Shown piece by piece: positions 16,535 through 60,245 of a DNA stretch of 64,000 nucleotides. Below the pieces are notes generated by a model. That model was not told the DNA's origin and ran no database searches. It worked only from the letters and a program-made list of their open reading frames with translations. The position numbers and the translations under genes were made by a program. Each line of letters starts with the position of its first letter. The stretch's first letter is position 1. The stretch covers positions 106,874,099 through 106,938,098 of the forward strand of contig CP092863.1 in the NCBI GenBank assembly GCA_030710605.1, given 5' to 3'. This DNA comes from Cordylochernes scorpioides. Taxonomy: Eukaryota; Arthropoda; Arachnida; Pseudoscorpiones; Chernetidae.

Positions 16535-17065
16535 AAAAGAGGTTACCTGGCCGACATTCATAGTTCTGTAAAAAATAGAAACTTCGGCCAATTAGAGTTT
16601 TTTTTTTCTCAACGTTTCAACAAAAATATTTTGTCTTCGTCAGGAGAAATAAATAGAAATAAAGCATTTGGCAAGGTTTTAAAAATAGCATATATATATA
16701 TTTATAATTGTATGAAATTCTACTGTTCTCAAATCTTATGTCTATAGTTCATCTAAAATACCCATTCCAAAAGTCTAGCAACAGTATCACTATAAAAGGA
16801 AGATCGAAAAATGCAATATAACAGCGGTATGGTAGATTAAACTGGCGAAAACGCTGGGAGGGTTCACCATTGATAAGCTAGGCCCCCCCATTAATTTTTC
16901 CATTGCAGTAAGGGCAGTAGAAATTGTTTTAATTTCAAAAAGAATCTTACGCGTCTAAAATAGTTTCGAATTTTAATAATAGATGGCGCGCTAGTGCATC
17001 ATAACAAAAGATTTTGTTGAAACGTTGTAAAAAAAAAAAACTCTAACTGGCCGAAGTGTCTATTT
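16535..17065. repeat. Foldback family A, with a family G copy inside
   Basis: The two ends are inverted: CTGGCCGACATTCATAGTTC ... CGGCCAATTAGAG on the left and CTCTAACTGGCCGAAGTG on the right. A hammerhead lies in the left arm (16605-16649, minus). The right arm (about 16993-17020) keeps only TTTTGTTGAAACGTTG. Between them lies a family G copy (about 16835-17003) with GCGAAAACGCTGGGAGGG. Confidence 0.65.
16605..16649 (-). ncRNA. Hammerhead ribozyme, foldback family A
   Basis: Read on the minus strand: stem I strand TTTCTC, core CTGACGA (fits CUGANGA), stem II with CAAAA paired to TTTTG, GAAA, then CGTT giving the self-complementary stem III ACGU and U as the UH residue, then GAGAAA. TTTCTC and GAGAAA pair perfectly over six bases. 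All core bases fit the hammerhead consensus. Very short self-complementary stem III is known for PLE-linked hammerheads, which cleave best as dimers. Cleavage is not shown. Confidence 0.78.
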
Positions 17066-19810: not shown

Positions 19811-20243
19811 TTGTAATCTCTTAATGCCCTCTATAGAGAAGGTTTTTTACCTTCCACGGACTTAATGACGTCATCATCTCTGACAAAACTGCTCTCTCTG
19901 CTGGTAAATGTTTTTATTTAAACTCTCTCTAAATAGGTCTTTTGTGTGTGTTGGTAAAATTCAATTATCTTAAATAGGTGTATTTAATATTTATATATAT
20001 ATACTACTGATATTTATTTAAGAAAAATGTGCGAATAAGCGTAAATAACAATTGTTATAATCTTTAGGTATAATAAAACGATAAGAGGCGCAAACAATAT
20101 GTTTCCTTATTTACATATGAGATAGCTTTCGGACATGTCTTTCCACAGACATTGAATAGGTAAATATTTTGAAAATAGAGCAATCCATGTTTAATTCATT
20201 AGATAATAGAAAGGCATATATTGGATTTAATAAAAGATTTATT

Positions 20244-20287
20244 TGCCAATATTTCGGTTGGCTGAACACCAAACCTTTATCAAGGCA
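20244..20287 (-). ncRNA. Hammerhead-type ribozyme, family C, left arm
   Basis: Minus strand: stem I TGCC, core TTGATAA, a spare A, stem II GGTTTGG...CCAACC, GAAA, TAT giving self-complementary AUAU, U as UH, then GGCA closing stem I. Relative to consensus only C3 (now U) and G8 (now A) differ, and these two bases pair with each other in active hammerheads. Confidence 0.6.
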
Positions 20288-20355
20288 TTACATTGTATAT
20301 TGCGTTATATATAATAACACTATGCGGCGCCCAGTTTATGTATACAAAAATGTAA

Positions 20356-20399
20356 TGCCTTGATAAAGGTTTGGCGTTCAGCCAACCGAAATATTGGCA
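20356..20399 (+). ncRNA. Hammerhead-type ribozyme, family C, right arm
   Basis: Stem I TGCC (20356-20359) pairs with GGCA (20396-20399). Core TTGATAA at 20360-20366, stem II 20368-20387 with a five-base loop and one bulged T, GAAA at 20388-20391, AUAU at 20391-20394, UH residue at 20395. Same C3U and G8A changes as the left arm. Confidence 0.62.
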
Positions 20400-20519
20400 A
20401 ATAAATATTTTATTAAATCCAATATATGCTTTTTATTATTCAATAGGTAAATATGTATCAAGATAAGCACCTCTCCCGTTAAAAAGGCCTTAAAATGATG
20501 CGTTTTTAAAGGGAGAGAT

Positions 20520-20740
20520 GCTCGCTAGATCACTTGAGTTGCTCGCTAGATCACTTGAGTTGCTCGCTAGATCACTTGAGTTGCTCGCTTGATCACTTGA
20601 GTTGCTCGCTAAATCACTTGAGTTGCTCGCTTGATCACTTGAGTTGCTCGCTAGATCACTTGAGTTGCTCGCTAGATCACTTGAGTTGCTCGCTTGATCA
20701 CTTGAGTTGCTCGCTAGATCTCTTGAGTTGCTCGCTTCTA
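20520..20740 (+). repeat. 21-bp minisatellite, about 10.5 copies
   Basis: Unit TTGCTCGCTAGATCACTTGAG repeats with variants CTTGATCAC and CTAAATCAC. All three forward frames stay open across it only because the unit is 21 bp, so the apparent repeat protein is not taken as a gene. Confidence 0.9.
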
Positions 20741-36639: not shown

Positions 36640-36958
36640 ATAAAGTAGAACTGCTCTTCACTGAAGGTTAATAACGAGTTTACAAAGTGGGAAGAGGAGC
36701 TTCTTTTTATTAGCATGCACACAAGCTTTCGGACATGTCGTCCTTCATCAGGTAAGAGTAATAAACGCGCTGAGGATCCATATATACACAAAGCTGAAAA
36801 GAAAATTTACATAACTGCAAAAGATAAAAGTATTTAAAGATAAAAATAAGAACCAAATATGCTAAAAAGATTATAGGGATTAAATGCTAATGAATCTGGA
36901 CTAAGTACATATGCACTATGAATGGTGTTAATCAAGGGCAGGTAAATGCAACCTATGG
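36640..36958 (-). other. 3' region of a second PLE, with hammerhead
   Basis: Non-coding minus-strand DNA between the stop of the PLE nuclease fragment and (AT)n/family G debris. It contains the hammerhead at 36718-36754. Confidence 0.6.
36718..36754 (-). ncRNA. Hammerhead ribozyme in PLE 3' region
   Basis: Minus strand: TAC, core CTGATGA (perfect consensus), spare A, stem II GGAC-gacat-GTCC, GAAA, GCT giving self-complementary AGCU, U as UH, then GTG. Stem I is short (C-G, A-U, U-G). The order and the AGCU stem III equal those of the PLE hammerhead at 51.7 kb. Confidence 0.75.
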
Positions 36959-47430: not shown

Positions 47431-47930
47431 CCTTATCCCAGTAAAATTTCCCTTTTGTGCTATTTTTCACATTGTTTGAAATTTTCACGCTCTTTCGATC
47501 TAAATACCAGTTTCATGATTTTTCAGGATGCCCTAATGGCCAGCTTATTTGGTAGTTGAGGTACAGCTTGTACAAGCTTGACGAGGATCAACAGCTCAAA
47601 GCTCTAGCGGAATCTGTTCTAAAAATGATAAATAATTTAGCGCTATATATTGCTGAAAATTATATGTACTTTTAACACTACTCTTTTGAAAAATAGGTAT
47701 AAATATAAACTATTAATACAGCCCTACTTTTTAAAAAGTTTTATTCATTGTAGTATAAAAATATAAGAGAGATTTATAGAAATAGGTTTTAATTAATAAA
47801 ATTTAAAAAGAAAAGTAAAAGGTTAAGTAAATTGTGTGTGTTATATCTCCTAAATGAACTCTTTTAAAATAGTCTACACCCACAATAAAACATTAAAACA
47901 TTTGTGGCCCTGAGTTTGTTGTTGACACAT
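47431..47930. other. AT-rich DNA with a worn hammerhead-like remnant
   Basis: Near 47567-47615 CTTGACGAGGATCAACAGCTC then AAAGCTC recalls a hammerhead with lost GAAA. No gene seen. Confidence 0.35.
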
Positions 47931-47934
47931 TAAT

Positions 47935-48170
47935 ATTAAGAAAAAAACATCTCCTTATCGTGCAAATGAAAGTTGCTGATGGCTTGATAGATGGCGCAAG
48001 CCATCAGAAACTTTCAGTTGCACGATAAGTAGATGCCTTTTTCTTAATTTATGCACCTTATCCCAGTACAACTGAAATATTGGTTAAATAAATGATTTTT
48101 TGATCCAATATATGCCTTTTTATTTAAAGATTTATTTATGGATTGCTTTATTTCCAAAATAATATATTTA
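47935..48170. repeat. Foldback family B hairpin fused to a family C end
   Basis: AAAACATCTCCTTATCGTGC and its complement near 48005-48040 form a short hairpin. After CCCAGTACAA the sequence switches to CTGAAATATTGGTTAAATAA, the 3' half of the family C hammerhead, and continues with the family C end (GATCCAATATATGCC). Confidence 0.6.
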
Positions 48171-49684: not shown

Positions 49685-50010
49685 AGAGGTTGCCTGGCCG
49701 GGGGCATTCATAGTTATTCAAATTAAAGATACTTTGGTCAGTAAATCTTTTTTATTGTCTCGACGTTTAGATAAAAATATTTTGTCCTCGTTAGGAGAAA
49801 ATTAAAACATTTGGCAAAGCGTTAGAAATTATTTTAAGGCTGCAAATATCGCGTGAGAATGCCCTTGCACACACACACACACAGCTTTAGAATAATTTTC
49901 AAAGATTTGCCAAATGTTTTAATTTTTGTTCGCTCTTGACGAGGATAAAAGATTTTTGTCGAAACGTTGAGACAATAAAAAAGATTTACTGACCGAAGTA
50001 ACTATCTTGT
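49685..50010. repeat. Foldback family A, both arms with hammerhead remnants
   Basis: The left arm (TTGCCTGGCCGGGGGCATTC ... GTCTCGACGTTTAG) and right arm (CTCTTGACGAGG ... CGTTGAGACAATAAAAAAG) are inverted. The left-arm core reads CTAACGA with TAAA for GAAA. A (CA)n run lies at about 49868-49882. Confidence 0.65.
49932..49974 (+). ncRNA. Hammerhead-like sequence with one core change
   Basis: GCTC, core TTGACGA, a stem of ATAAAA/TTTTTGT type, GAAA, CGTT (ACGU stem III, U as UH), GAGA. Only C3 differs from consensus (U), and G8 is unchanged, so the C3-G8 pair is a U-G wobble here. Probably weak or inactive. Confidence 0.5.
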
Positions 50011-50215
50011 GGTTTCTTCTATCTGCTTATGTTTTTGATTTTTGTTTAATGTATATTTTAATTTAATGCTCTTTTTCTTAATTGTTTATTTTCTTTTTGA
50101 CAATTCTGTTACCTACTCTACTACAATTATTGTAAATAGTTTCACGCGCAAATATCCAGATCGGATATAGCGTGTCTTGTTTGCAACTGGTAATAAATAA
50201 GTATATTTAATTTGA
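50011..50215. other. Flank and target site of the PLE
   Basis: AT-rich. Ends with TATTTAATTTGA at 50204-50215, which recurs at 54535-54546. Confidence 0.6.
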
Positions 50216-50480
50216 CATCATATCGCCACGCTGTAAGATTCAAAGGAAAAACAGGGTAACGTGGTAAGATTCTTTAATAGAACACGACGAGCTTTCAGGC
50301 AGCAACTGCCCTTCTTCAGGTCTTATACAAGTGTAGACAAAGAAGTGCCATATTTATAAGCGAAAATATTTACATATATACGCGCAAGGAATAAGGAATT
50401 TTACATACTGAAGATTGGAAAGGGGAATTTGCATATTTACAAATAAAAATAAAACAAACTCTGTGTGAGAAATAGAGGCA
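50216..50480 (-). repeat. Inverted pseudo-LTR segment at the PLE 5' end
   Basis: Complement of the 3' UTR of unit A plus the first about 20 bases of unit B (CATCATATCGCCACGC at the left edge). Because it contains the tail-to-head junction, the template must already have been tandem or circular. Confidence 0.85.
50286..50322 (-). ncRNA. PLE hammerhead ribozyme, inverted copy
   Basis: Same sequence as 51747-51783 on the other strand: GAC, CTGAAGA, stem II around GGCAG/CTGCC, GAAA, GCTC, GTC. Confidence 0.7.
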
Positions 50481-50490
50481 AAATGTACAG

Positions 50491-51504
50491 ATGAGAGGCT
50501 CCCCTATGGGCAGCCCTCTTTCCACAATAGCAGCTGAGATTGTTATGTCTAATCTGGACCGGTGGTTAGTTTCCCATAATCATTTGGGGATCGAGATGTG
50601 GTCGAGGTACGTTGACGACATTTTTTGCCTCCATCGTGATACCGACCATCTCCCCATACTCACGGTTTTAAACTCATACCATCATGATCTCCCTTTTACT
50701 CACAACCCATCCTGTTTTAATTGCATCCCGTTTTTAGACGTTTTAGTCATCAACATTAATGGCACTTTTCAGACCACCGTATTTCGCAAGCCTAACTTCA
50801 CTCCCTCCTATTTACACTTTTTATCACATGCCCCGGTTTCTCACAAAATCTCCACGGTAAAAACTCTCTCCAAACGGGTATATACTCATTGTTCCCTTGC
50901 CTTATTTAGAACGATCGAGAAGCGTACCGTTTACACCCATCTTTTATCCGCCGGTTACCCTCATAATTTTATTGACCGCCATTTTTACGTTCCGAACCAC
51001 AAAAAAGTTACACCTCCGCTGTATAAAAACGTCTGTGTCCTTCCTTTTTCGACCACGAACTCTGATATTGCGTTATTTTTACGAAAATTCGGTATTCGCA
51101 CGTTTTTCAAAAATTCGCCTTCTCTAGAAGCATCCTTACGGCACCCCATAACAAAAAGCTCCATCAAACTTAACCCTCTATCCCTCAATAACGGCATCTA
51201 TAAAATATCATGCAACGATTGTGAGCAATGCTACATTGGTGAAACTGGTCGAACCATCGCCACTAGAATCCGCGAACACAACCGTAATATACGTTCCAAA
51301 GATCGAAAATCTCTCATCTTTCAACACATGGCAGATTTCGACCATTTCTTTAATTTAGACGATACGATTTCTGTATACAGGGATATTGGAAACAAGTACC
51401 AACGCTTGGTTCTGGAAGCACTGGTGTCCAACTGTACTCCCAGTTTTAACCGGAAGATTGATCTCCCACCGCAATATACAATATTTTACGGCCTCACTCG
51501 CTGA
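50491..51504 (+). CDS. PLE protein, RT C-terminal part and GIY-YIG nuclease (unit A, 5'-truncated)
   Basis: An intact 337-codon frame starting at an internal Met in the RT palm. RT: RGSPMGSPLS, then RYVDDIF with the catalytic pair at residues 42-43, FLDVLV and FRKPNFT. Nuclease: NGIYKISC at about 234-241, CNDCEQCYIGETGR (Cys pair, YIG at 248-250, Arg254), RIREH at 259-263 and LEA with a probable catalytic Glu at 309. PLE proteins reverse transcribe at a nick made by the GIY-YIG domain. The fingers and N-terminal domain are missing because the copy begins at 50484. Unit B has the same end. Confidence 0.9.
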   Translation: MRGSPMGSPLSTIAAEIVMSNLDRWLVSHNHLGIEMWSRYVDDIFCLHRDTDHLPILTVLNSYHHDLPFTHNPSCFNCIPFLDVLVININGTFQTTVFRKPNFTPSYLHFLSHAPVSHKISTVKTLSKRVYTHCSLALFRTIEKRTVYTHLLSAGYPHNFIDRHFYVPNHKKVTPPLYKNVCVLPFSTTNSDIALFLRKFGIRTFFKNSPSLEASLRHPITKSSIKLNPLSLNNGIYKISCNDCEQCYIGETGRTIATRIREHNRNIRSKDRKSLIFQHMADFDHFFNLDDTISVYRDIGNKYQRLVLEALVSNCTPSFNRKIDLPPQYTIFYGLTR

Positions 51505-51835
51505 TATGTTTCTGGGTTTTATTGTTATTTACGGTTTAATTTTTATCTCCGTGTTTTGCCTTCAGGTTTAATTTTTATCTCCGTTTTTTGCCTCTATTTC
51601 TCACACAGAGTTTGTTTTATTTTTATTTGTAAATATGCAAATTCCCCTTTCGAATCTTCAGTATGTAAAATTCCTTATTCCTTGCGCGTATATATGTAAA
51701 TATTTTCGCTTATAAATATGGCACTTCTTTGTCTACACTTGTATAAGACCTGAAGAAGGGCAGTTGCTGCCTGAAAGCTCGTCGTGTTCTATTAAAGAAT
51801 CTTACCACGTTACCCTGTTTTTCCTTTGAATCTTA
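51505..51835 (+). repeat. PLE 3' UTR / pseudo-LTR between units
   Basis: Non-coding. Shared with 54209-54534 and, inverted, with 50216-50480. Holds the hammerhead at 51747-51783 and ends TTTTTCCTTTGAA. Confidence 0.85.
51747..51783 (+). ncRNA. PLE hammerhead ribozyme (unit A junction)
   Basis: GAC (51747-51749), core CTGAAGA (51750-51756), stem II with GGCAG/CTGCC around TTG (51757-51772), GAAA (51773-51776), self-complementary AGCU (51776-51779), C as UH residue (51780), GTC (51781-51783) pairing with GAC. Hammerheads in PLE pseudo-LTRs are established; this short stem III type is expected to act in dimeric RNA. Confidence 0.78.
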
Positions 51836-51847
51836 TAGCGTGGCGAT

Positions 51848-54208
51848 ATGATGTCTGATCCTAACCTTGAATATCTTGCCTTTTATAAGCGGCAGCTGAA
51901 CAAGAAGTCTTTGCAGCTCGCCCGTTGGCGCTGTCATCTTGCCTTTAACCTAAAATGTTCCCAGGCCTCCTTCATACCACCCTCTCTTAGGATTAGGGAT
52001 CCAGTACAAAACCATTACTCCGCTGCAATTATACACAGAACCGAAGAACAGCTTCTTAACTCGAGAATTAGAGGCTCCCGTGCTATGATCCGTTTTTTAC
52101 AAAAAACCATCAGAGGTCTGCTTTGCCTGCTCTCTCCCAGAATCCCTTCCAATGATCTCGGCTCTCTTGTACAAGGCATAACCGCCCGAGTTAAACTTCA
52201 GAACTCTGAGATTGAACTCCGGCACCAGAGGAAGCTGGAATTCTGGCACGTGAAATATGGTTTTCCCTTGCGCACCCCGCTCCCCCTCTGAAGATACCAT
52301 TGTTAACCTAACCGACATCGTATTTTCAGACAAGCAGATATCCCTACTAGAGAAAGGCCTTAGTTTTCGGTTGCCCAATGAACCTGATCTTTTATACACG
52401 ATTAGCTGTATTGAATCTTCCCTCCAGCACCAGTCCCACACAGACAAACATCACATCCGTTCTACCATAGCCAACAAACTTCTTGCTGCTTACAAGAGTT
52501 CTTCATCTCGCTCCAATTCCGTCAAGAGCGATCTTGCCTCCTTGAAAGCCCTCAAGAGCCATCATGATATCCTCATCACTAAATCAGATAAGGGCTCACA
52601 AGTAGTTGTGTTAAAAGTTGATGATTACAAGAAGAAAATGTCTGATATCCTTTCAGACTCCGATACCTTCCAAGAGATTTCACCTGAACGTGTTTGTGCT
52701 ATTTCTGGTGCCTACAAATCATCACTCGGATTGCTCAGAAGAAACGAATGCATTACTCCCGATCAGTTCCAGCAGTTTACCTCCAATCTTTCCAGGGTTC
52801 CATATATATATATGGCCTACCAAAAACCCATAAGCCCAGTGTCCCCCTTAGACCCATAGTTGCTTACCATCTGTCACCCGCCTTACCGCTAGCCAAATAC
52901 CTTTCTAGCCTTCTAAAACCCCTGGTCAAAACTCATAATCTTTACTCGGTACAAGATCCATCTGAATTTTTTACAAGATTAAAGAATGTCCCCCAACCTC
53001 GTGGTCTCACCATGTCGACTTTTGACGTGACATCACTCTTTCTGTGCCTCCAGCATTCTCTGATCATAGATGGCCTTGAGCAACTTCTTTCTTCTTCCAC
53101 TCTTCCTAGTAATGATCAAAAAACCATCTTGGATCTATTCACCATCTGCCTTGACATGAATGCTTTAGAATTCAATGGCTGTTTCTTTGTACAGATGAGA
53201 GGCTCCCCTATGGGCAGCCCTCTTTCCACAATAGCAGCTGAGATTGTTATGTCTAATCTGGACCGGTGGTTAGTTTCCCATAATAATTTGGGGATCGAGA
53301 TGTGGTCGAGGTACGTTGACGACATTTTTTGCCTCCATCGTGATACCGACCATCTCCCCATACTCACGGTTTTAAACTCATACCATCATGATCTCCGTTT
53401 TACTCACAACCCATCCTGTTTTAATTGCATCCCGTTTTTAGACGTTTTAGTCATCAACACTAATGGCACTTTTCAGACCACCGTATTTCGCAAGCCTAAC
53501 TTCACTCCCTCCTATTTACACTTTTTATCACATGCCCCGGTTTCTCACAAAATCACTACGGTAAAAACTCTCTCCAAACGGGTATATACTCATTGTTCCC
53601 TTGCCTTATTTAGAACGATCGAGAAGCGTACCGTTTACACCCATCTTTTATCTGCCGGTTACCCTCATAATTTTATTGACCGCCATTTTTACGTTCCGAA
53701 CCACAAAAAAGTTACACCTCTGCTGTATAAAAACGTCTGTGTCCTTCCTTTTTCGACCACGAACTCTGATATTGCGTTATTTTTACGAAAATTCGGTATT
53801 CGCACGTTTTTCAAAAATTCGCCTTCCCTAGAAGCATCCTTACGGCACCCCATAACAAAAAGCTCCATCAAACTTAACCCTCTATCCCTCAATAACGGCA
53901 TCTATAAAATATCATGCAACGATTGTGAGCAATGCTACATTGGTGAAACTGGTCGAACCATCGCCACTAGAATCCGCGAACACAACCGTAATATACGTTC
54001 CAAAGATCGAAAATCTCTCATCTTTCAACACATGGCAGATTTCGACCATTCCTTTAATTTAGACGATACGATTTCTGTATACAGGTATATTGGAAACAAG
54101 TACCAACGCTTGGTTCTGGAAGCACTGGTGTCCAACTGTACTCCCAGTTTTAACCGGAAGATTGATCTCCCACCGCAATATACAATATTTTACGGCCTCA
54201 CTCGCTGA
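51848..54208 (+). pseudogene. PLE protein, full-length unit B with two frame breaks
   Basis: Three overlapping frames join to one PLE protein. N-terminal part 51848-52291 (MMSDPNLEYLAFYKRQ, a basic domain). The frame shifts by one base near 52262-52275, at TGGTTTTCCC, where the text should continue ...FPCAPRSPSEDT. The second part ends at 52859 after a break in a CATATATATATATGG microsatellite near 52801-52814; the third part reads IYGLPKTHKPSVPLRPIVA, the classic PLE RT motif, then FDVTSLF (first Asp), RGSPMGSPLS, RYVDDIF, and the GIY-YIG domain to 54208. Both breaks are small indels; otherwise the copy looks fresh. Confidence 0.9.
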
Positions 54209-54450
54209 TATGTTTCTGGGTTTTATTGTTATTTACGGTTTAATTTTTATCTCCGTGTTTTGCCTTCAGGTTTAATTTTTATCTCCGTTTTTTGCCTCTA
54301 TTTCTCACACAGAGTTTGTTTTATTTTTATTTGTAAATATGCAAATTCCCCTTTCCAATCTTCAGTATGTAAAATTCCTTATTCCTTGCGCGTATATATG
54401 TAAATATTTTCGCTTATAAATATGGCACTTCTTTGTCTACACTTGTATAA

Positions 54451-54487
54451 GACCTGAAGAAGGGCAGTTGCTGCCTGAAAGCTCGTC
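54451..54487 (+). ncRNA. PLE hammerhead ribozyme (unit B 3' end)
   Basis: Identical in all core parts to 51747-51783: GAC, CTGAAGA, GGCAG/CTGCC stem, GAAA, GCTC, GTC. Confidence 0.78.
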
Positions 54488-54546
54488 GTGTTCTATTAAA
54501 GAATCTTACCACGTTACCCTGTTTTTCCTTTGAATATTTAATTTGA

Positions 54547-59929: not shown

Positions 59930-60008
59930 CATATATTTTAAAATAGAGCAATCCATAAATAAATCTTTAATTAAAAAGGCATATATTGAATCAAAATATC
60001 ATTTATTT

Positions 60009-60050
60009 TACTAATTTTTCTGTTGGCTAACGCCAACCTTTCTCAAAGTA
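60009..60050 (-). ncRNA. Hammerhead-type ribozyme, family C, left arm of copy 2
   Basis: Minus strand: stem I TACT, core TTGAGAA, spare A, stem II GGTTGGC...GCCAAC, GAAA, then AAT, T as UH, and AGTA which pairs perfectly with TACT. Again U3 and A8. Stem III is imperfect here (A15.2 faces A16.2). Confidence 0.5.
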
Positions 60051-60149
60051 CTATGTATTATAACATATTAATGTTTGTCATCAACAACTTAATTCTATTG
60101 ACGTTATGTGGCGCTGAGTTTGTTGTTGACACACATTAATATGTTATAA

Positions 60150-60192
60150 TACCTTGATAAAGGTTGGCTTTCAGCCAACTGAAATATTGGTA
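60150..60192 (+). ncRNA. Hammerhead-type ribozyme, family C, right arm of copy 2
   Basis: Stem I TACC (60150-60153) pairs with GGTA (60189-60192); core TTGATAA (60154-60160), spare A, stem II GGTTGGC-tttca-GCCAACT, GAAA (60181-60184), AUAU, U as UH. U3/A8 as in the other copies. Confidence 0.6.
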
Positions 60193-60245
60193 AAATAATG
60201 ATTTTTGATCCAATATATGTCTTTTTAATTAAAGATATATATATA

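Follow-up and report, generated by a model that had tools for sequence, protein, structure and literature searches.

Minimal type I hammerhead ribozymes have been described in Penelope-like elements (PLEs), where they lack helix III and may act as dimers (PMC6155905, PMC7761336) and where their role is described as unknown (PMC7761336). The Penelope elements themselves carry inverted pLTRs, an optional 31-bp tail and target duplications of 8-10 bp; their palindromic junctions have been attributed to self-priming, and non-coding sequence is found between the pLTRs (PMC3846280). The cleavage target of PLEs is reported to be A/T-rich, and the tail to lie between two start sites of the reverse transcriptase (RT; PMC11167929). 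Among hammerheads more generally, a natural covariation from C3-G8 to U3-A8 was reported by Perreault et al. in 2011, in a paper that states that U3-A8 hammerheads have been shown to be active in vitro (PMC3088659).

Here we describe two short palindromic insertions in a 64,000-nucleotide stretch of the Cordylochernes scorpioides genome (assembly GCA_030710605.1, contig CP092863.1, positions 106,874,099 to 106,938,098; the window). The analysis establishes the layout of their hammerhead motif and the anatomy of the insertions, a U3-A8 exchange that is fixed in the family, and a subfamily in which U4 is replaced by C in both arms (U4C).

Two insertions with inverted arms

Four arms had been singled out by the original prediction as a hammerhead family, and their positions and letters were found to be as given there. 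They belong to two insertions, E1 and E2, each with a pair of inverted arms (Table 1). On re-reading, the stem I strands are likewise those predicted: TGCC/GGCA in both E1 arms, TACT/AGTA in the E2 left arm and TACC/GGTA in the E2 right arm. The core reads TTGATAA in three arms and TTGAGAA in the E2 left arm, which is decayed, with a G.A opposition as its first stem II pair and a 4-mer, AAAT, that is not self-complementary. The E1 arms (85 nt each) are 96% complementary and separated by 54 nt. No reading frame of at least 150 aa overlaps E1 or E2. By eye, a tandem array with a unit near 21 bp (GCTCGCTAGATCACTTGAGTT) lies just downstream of E1, at 20519-20735. Half an E2-type element, apparently broken by another small palindromic repeat, lies at 47900-48150.

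Table 1. Features of E1, E2 and the Penelope-like element in the window
Feature	Position	Strand	Remarks
E1, short palindromic element, very probably non-autonomous and Penelope-type	about 20168-20441	.	ends compared with genome copies
E1 tail	about 20168-20199		
E1 inverted arms	20210-20294 and 20349-20433		
E1 left target-site duplication, AATAGGTAAATAT	20155-20167	.	13-nt direct repeat
E1 right target-site duplication, AATAGGTAAATAT	20442-20454	.	13-nt direct repeat
Hammerhead motif, E1 left (inverted) arm	20244-20287	-	TGCC TTGATAA A stem II GAA ATAT T GGCA
Hammerhead motif, E1 right arm	20356-20399	+	layout as in E1 left arm
E2, sister-subfamily element	about 59936-60233	.	ends approximate; target-site duplication degenerate
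Decayed hammerhead motif, E2 left arm	60009-60050	-	TACT TTGAGAA ... AGTA
Hammerhead motif, E2 right arm	60150-60192	+	TACC TTGATAA ... GGTA
PLE: inverted pLTR arm, 5'-truncated unit, longer unit	50216-54535	+	
PLE flanks, ATTTAATTTGA	50205-50215 and 54536-54546		by eye
PLE frame, first	50491-51504	+	GIY-YIG 28.6 bits (cut-off 22.6); RVT_1 21.6 bits, sub-threshold (cut-off 29.6)
PLE frame, second	52694-54208	+	RVT_1 31.6 bits and GIY-YIG 26.5 bits, both above cut-off
PLE hammerhead, inverted arm	50286-50322	-	GAC CTGAAGA A stem II GAA AGCT C GTC
PLE hammerhead, middle pLTR	51747-51783	+	
PLE hammerhead, right pLTR	54451-54487	+	

The window also holds a PLE, whose frames end 243 nt 5' of a hammerhead and whose inverted left arm is 99.6% identical to the right end over 249 nt and reaches further outward. 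Apart from E1 and E2, the Penelope-type motifs of the window have C3-G8 (CTGAAGA, CTGACGA, CTGATGA), except for one with U3.G8 (TTGACGA) that is perhaps a decayed copy. The latter, with ACGT and T, lies in the right arm of a palindromic element at 49727-50003, whose arms are 77% identical to each other's reverse complement; the CTGACGA motif at 16605-16649 (minus strand) is related to it. The CTGATGA motif at 36720-36754 (minus strand), with AGCT and T, belongs to a separate family.

Compared with the classical hammerhead, the E1/E2 motif carries an additional nucleotide after A9, before stem II begins, and a 5-nt segment takes the place of stem III, of which there remains no more than a single A-U pair or a 4-mer that could pair between molecules. 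The PLE motifs of the window depart from the classical form in the same two respects. In the arm alignments, G12, A13, A14 and A15.1-U16.1 are features of the family; U4, G5, A6 and A9 are kept in E2 and the older E1 copies, and U4 is C in the youngest E1 group sampled. The 4-mer is self-complementary in each family: ATAT in E1 and the E2 right arm, AGCT in the PLE and ACGT in the third family. The motif is also placed alike, in a terminal repeat near the end of the element (about 40 nt from the right end in E1, about 50 nt in the PLE). An early reading that these arms hold no hammerhead, based on the extra nucleotide, the missing stem III, the lack of an Rfam match and U4C, was dropped because the PLE in the window shares the layout.

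To quantify the resemblance, a descriptor was used that had been devised after the E1/E2 layout was seen and that allowed any spacing of 0-2 nt after A9 and any length of 3-13 nt for the stem III segment. It gave seven matches in the window, representing five distinct sequences (the PLE motif three times), all of them with one extra nucleotide and a 5-nt segment; the mean over 20 dinucleotide shuffles was 0.45 matches, with scattered spacings. The E2 right arm is among the seven, and both E1 arms match at a looser stem II threshold, at which all nine window matches again have this spacing; the E2 left arm was not recovered at either threshold. At the stricter of the two thresholds, a scan of 356,672 bases (the window and the sampled loci, partly overlapping) found 39 distinct motifs, 35 of E type and four others, all four inside the window. 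Taken alone, the 42-44-nt motif folds better than its own shuffles (z -1.7 to -3.4).

The Rfam hammerhead models reached threshold nowhere in the window, and none of the 17 matches obtained for the E1 region at E<=10 was to them; a genome-wide Rfam search (2.62 Gb, 24 contigs) returned no matches, the control models being equally silent. Because the four non-E hammerheads are divergent, differ in stem II length and aligned poorly, the descriptor scan, pattern counts and pair counts were used in place of a covariance model search. The proposed hammerhead family thus stands as one of the Penelope minimal kind, on the strength of a spacing shared with the PLE motifs and the excess of matches over shuffles. 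In our judgement E1 and E2 are very likely non-autonomous Penelope-type elements whose motif is a Penelope-type minimal hammerhead.

Copies, insertion anatomy and the U3-A8 exchange

Both elements have many relatives. An exact 39-mer of one E1 subfamily (U4C, the youngest sampled) occurs 4,918 times genome-wide, and a 35-place E2 pattern 13,395 times; the reversed control of each gave 0. Individual copies were chosen for their similarity to E1 or E2 rather than at random, with 40 places scored out of 1,851 first-look candidates for E1 and 40 out of 3,366 for E2.

In the E1 set, a tail pattern of about 32 nt beyond the short end is present at one end in 37 of 41 sequences, and at both ends in none of the 38 listed. 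In the E2 set the tail is at the left end in 28 of 29 sequences, one copy has it at the right and another at both ends, and the inner junction between the arms differs from copy to copy. Target duplications in the E1 set are A/T-rich and 11-19 nt long where they lie above the 95% level obtained by swapping flanks among copies, as in 13 of 37 cases (11 of 33 without duplicates, since three of the 13 represent one duplicated locus); most single duplications fail this null, and they are blurred by A/T-rich flanks. Some copies lack an inverted arm in the roughly 200 nt upstream and start their similarity at different points, as if 5'-truncated. The anatomy of E1 and E2 is thus of Penelope type, with inverted pLTR-like arms, an optional tail and a short, variable, A/T-rich target duplication. 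An origin as a transposon with terminal inverted repeats or a MITE was rejected, since the tail makes the two ends unlike and the duplications are not of constant length. A microRNA-like precursor was also set aside: the MIR4208 match scores 64.6 bits against a gathering score of 140 and was attributed to chance similarity in a long hairpin rich in A/T.

No autonomous parent with an E arm was found in an upstream walk with 40 places scored or in the parts of two candidate loci, L118 and L119, that were read. The stretches of L118 (1.4 kb) and L119 (1.1 kb), judged by frame length, contain no frame above 96 aa, and the open reading frame with RT and GIY-YIG that marks an autonomous PLE is absent from E1, E2 and the seen parts of both loci. 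L118 is another short E1 palindrome adjoining unrelated sequence. L119 belongs to a longer copy with two inverted 39-mers 1.66 kb apart; unless a separate insertion is involved, the 1.1 kb seen between them is non-coding and for the most part palindromic itself. By eye, positions 1-650 of L119, which lie inside a longer E1-type palindrome, form an extended and almost perfect inverted repeat without coding sequence.

Three further observations concern relationships among copies. A 95% identical E2 copy with the same left flank lies about 164 kb upstream of E2 (L070; contig C1, 106769482-106769766), which suggests a local duplication. E1 arms are 0.942 alike within an element and 0.913 alike in left-right comparisons between elements. 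In raw counts across 32 E1 elements, 45 sites carry the same change in both arms and 95 a change in one arm only, and the corresponding figures for 27 E2 elements are 7 and 96; the changes common to both arms are partly explained by shared subfamily letters.

The prediction that all four arms carry U at position 3 and A at position 8 holds for the whole family. The two letters occur together in 118 of 120 deduplicated arms, in which positions 3 and 8 are pairable, and among the roughly 100 listed matches to the E2 pattern only three deviate from TTGATAA. The 120-arm set excludes the duplicated loci L033, L052b, L061, L064, L068 and L070, the right arm of L065, the left arm of L075, and L059 and L066; the E2 of the window enters it as locus L069. 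U3-A8 is therefore a fixed feature of the E family. As a natural exchange it is not new, the change from C3-G8 to U3-A8 having been reported in 2011 (PMC3088659).

Core letters and pairing among the copies

In E2, the core letters TTGA, AA, GAA, A15.1 and U16.1 are retained in 46 of 55 arms. Variation falls mainly on N7, which is changed in seven of 55 arms (six elements), compared with three changes in 329 at the other positions (Fisher 7e-5, for a difference noticed on inspection). U4, like N7 a T in the family, was chosen as a control before the genome-wide count, and in the same E2 context there are 1,855 N7 variants versus 190 U4 variants. Most of the N7 variants listed are A, so the excess would stem largely from one source lineage and few events; with that restriction, it agrees with N7 as a free core position.

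In the 65 E1 arms N7 is invariant and position 4 varies. U4C is present in both arms of 13 deduplicated E1 copies, which have a mean identity of 0.956 (arms 0.978 alike) and are more alike than the 14 TTGATAA copies (mean identity 0.920, arms 0.926 alike); the U4C copies are therefore the youngest of the sampled E1 groups. U4 is part of the classical conserved hammerhead core, and for this reason cleavage is predicted to be lost in U4C E1. Judged from sequence, then, cleavage in the youngest sampled E1 subfamily was probably lost while spreading continued. The suggestion that the fold was kept after catalysis was lost accordingly fits this subfamily. For E2-type arms, the chances that they cleave at all appear evenly balanced.

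A stronger form of this idea is that the Penelope-type fold cleaves in no E subfamily and is a relic that persists either as a passenger or because the RT/endonuclease recognises the hairpin. It is compatible with the Penelope-type identity of E1 and E2 and opposes only the part of our reading that concerns cleavage. The greater likeness of the copies with U4C in both arms, the thousands of exact U4C 39-mers, the lack of any pairing excess among copies (below) and the report that PLE insertion in vitro needs no cleavage (PMC11167929) all speak for it. Against it stand the E2 core letters, retained in most arms and varying mainly at the sole free core position. We regard a universal relic as a serious contender, somewhat short of an even chance. 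A stepwise version, in which the hammerhead is being dismantled while its carrier spreads, U3-A8 arising first and the replacement of U4 following, with the fold serving as a recognition or priming hairpin for the Penelope RT or the C4 core cleaving in an altered way, seems to us unlikely.

The proposal that positions 3-8 and stem I are kept under pairing constraint found no backing in the covariation counts. Genome-wide, a 37-letter E2 context is found with C3 and A8 at 70 places and with U3 and G8 at 134; C3-G8 doubles number 0 where about 0.7 would be expected, a figure that uses about 13,000 U3-A8 occurrences from the 35-place pattern rather than from the exact 37-letter context. Among the 120 arms, two-sided changes that keep pairing number one in stem I (shuffle mean 0.41, P 0.34; one further two-sided change is broken), two in stem II (shuffle mean 0.86, P 0.20) and none at the 3-8 pair. 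The outer stem I pair is lost in 21 of 55 E2 arms, and one-sided changes break the inner pair in eight of 55. It is important to note that such counts mostly record mutations in dead copies, and therefore test selection on copies, not on source genes.

Direct selection on the genomic copies for pairing in stem I and at 3-8 thus appears improbable: compensated changes do not exceed those of shuffles, the 3-8 counts show no excess, and many E2 arms have lost the outer stem I pair. What can be said for it is that the step from TGCC/GGCA in E1 to TACC/GGTA in E2 is compensated, and that subfamily changes in stem II preserve G.U pairing in the hammerhead sense. The former is a single event. The matched stem I changes originally noted do pair; they come down to a single difference between the E1 and E2 subfamilies (G-C in E1, A-U in E2) and a double change confined to the left arm of the E2 in the window.

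Proposed mechanism and comparison with known systems

In the model that we favour, E1 and E2 are short, non-coding, non-autonomous elements that would be mobilised in trans by a Penelope-like reverse transcriptase/endonuclease. An insertion is built from two inverted copies of a single pLTR-like arm; a tail of about 32 nt may be added, as a rule at one end only, and the target duplication is A/T-rich. Each arm provides a Penelope-type minimal hammerhead with U3-A8 for the core pair C3-G8. In a single-arm transcript, two motifs could pair via their self-complementary AUAU and then cleave as a dimer, which older E1 copies and E2 may do; when the whole element is transcribed, its arms would pair together and mask the motif. 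In the youngest sampled E1, with U4 changed to C, cleavage is probably gone although the subfamily went on spreading.

Folding predictions bear on the masking step. The whole E1 RNA is predicted to form a long hairpin (-156 kcal/mol), E1 arms of 120 and 102 nt fold little or no better than shuffles (z 0.0 and -1.3), and the best predicted fold of the right arm is without stem I. The ribozyme could therefore act only in one-arm transcripts or while the second arm has yet to be transcribed. The spread of the U4C subfamily fits the in vitro finding that PLE insertion proceeds without a need for cleavage (PMC11167929).

Closely related, abundant subfamilies with U3-A8 and U4 (E2, older E1) and with U4C (young E1) constitute a natural experiment. 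If U4C RNA is non-cleaving, thousands of copies would show mobility without cleavage, in line with the in vitro results (PMC11167929).

Two further readings concern the identity of the elements. Metazoan retrozymes are, like E1 and E2, non-autonomous hammerhead-bearing animal elements, some with a weak helix III (PMC7229834), and the high copy number and non-coding nature of E1 and E2, together with the weak helix III and palindromic tetraloop of axolotl retrozymes (PMC7229834), could be taken to place them there, as tandem-repeat elements with canonical type I hammerheads spreading via circular RNA. We find this very improbable. Known retrozymes are described as small repeats with canonical type I motifs, tandem in coral (PMC7229834), whereas the arms of E1 and E2 are inverted, the ground on which a retrozyme was rejected, their motif has Penelope-type spacing, and stem III is missing as well. 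An equally remote reading, that an ordinary MITE has arms with a fortuitous small palindrome, could appeal to the silence of the Rfam models and to the departures from the classical consensus at positions 3, 8 and stem III, but is countered by the exact spacing common to the PLE hammerheads of the same window, far above shuffle expectation, by the tail and by target duplications of varying length.

Non-autonomous Penelope-type elements thus remain the preferred reading, and the closest described systems support it. The minimal hammerheads of PLEs (Cervera & de la Pena 2014; Luense et al. 2017; via PMC6155905 and PMC7761336) share with E1 and E2 the lack of helix III, the location in terminal repeats and the suspected dimers. 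Compared by description, the E family differs in having U3-A8 instead of C3-G8, in the U4C of its youngest sampled subfamily, and in that the motif sits in non-coding inverted-arm elements in which no open reading frame was found. The hammerheads of Perreault et al. (PMC3088659) have the same exchange as the E family, in passages that leave unstated whether they are Penelope-type. The rotifer Penelope elements described in 2013 (PMC3846280) resemble E1 and E2 in their inverted pLTRs, a tail of about 31 bp, short duplications, palindromic junctions and non-coding sequence between pLTRs; in contrast to them, the E elements are mostly a few hundred bases long, non-coding where seen, and present in thousands of copies.
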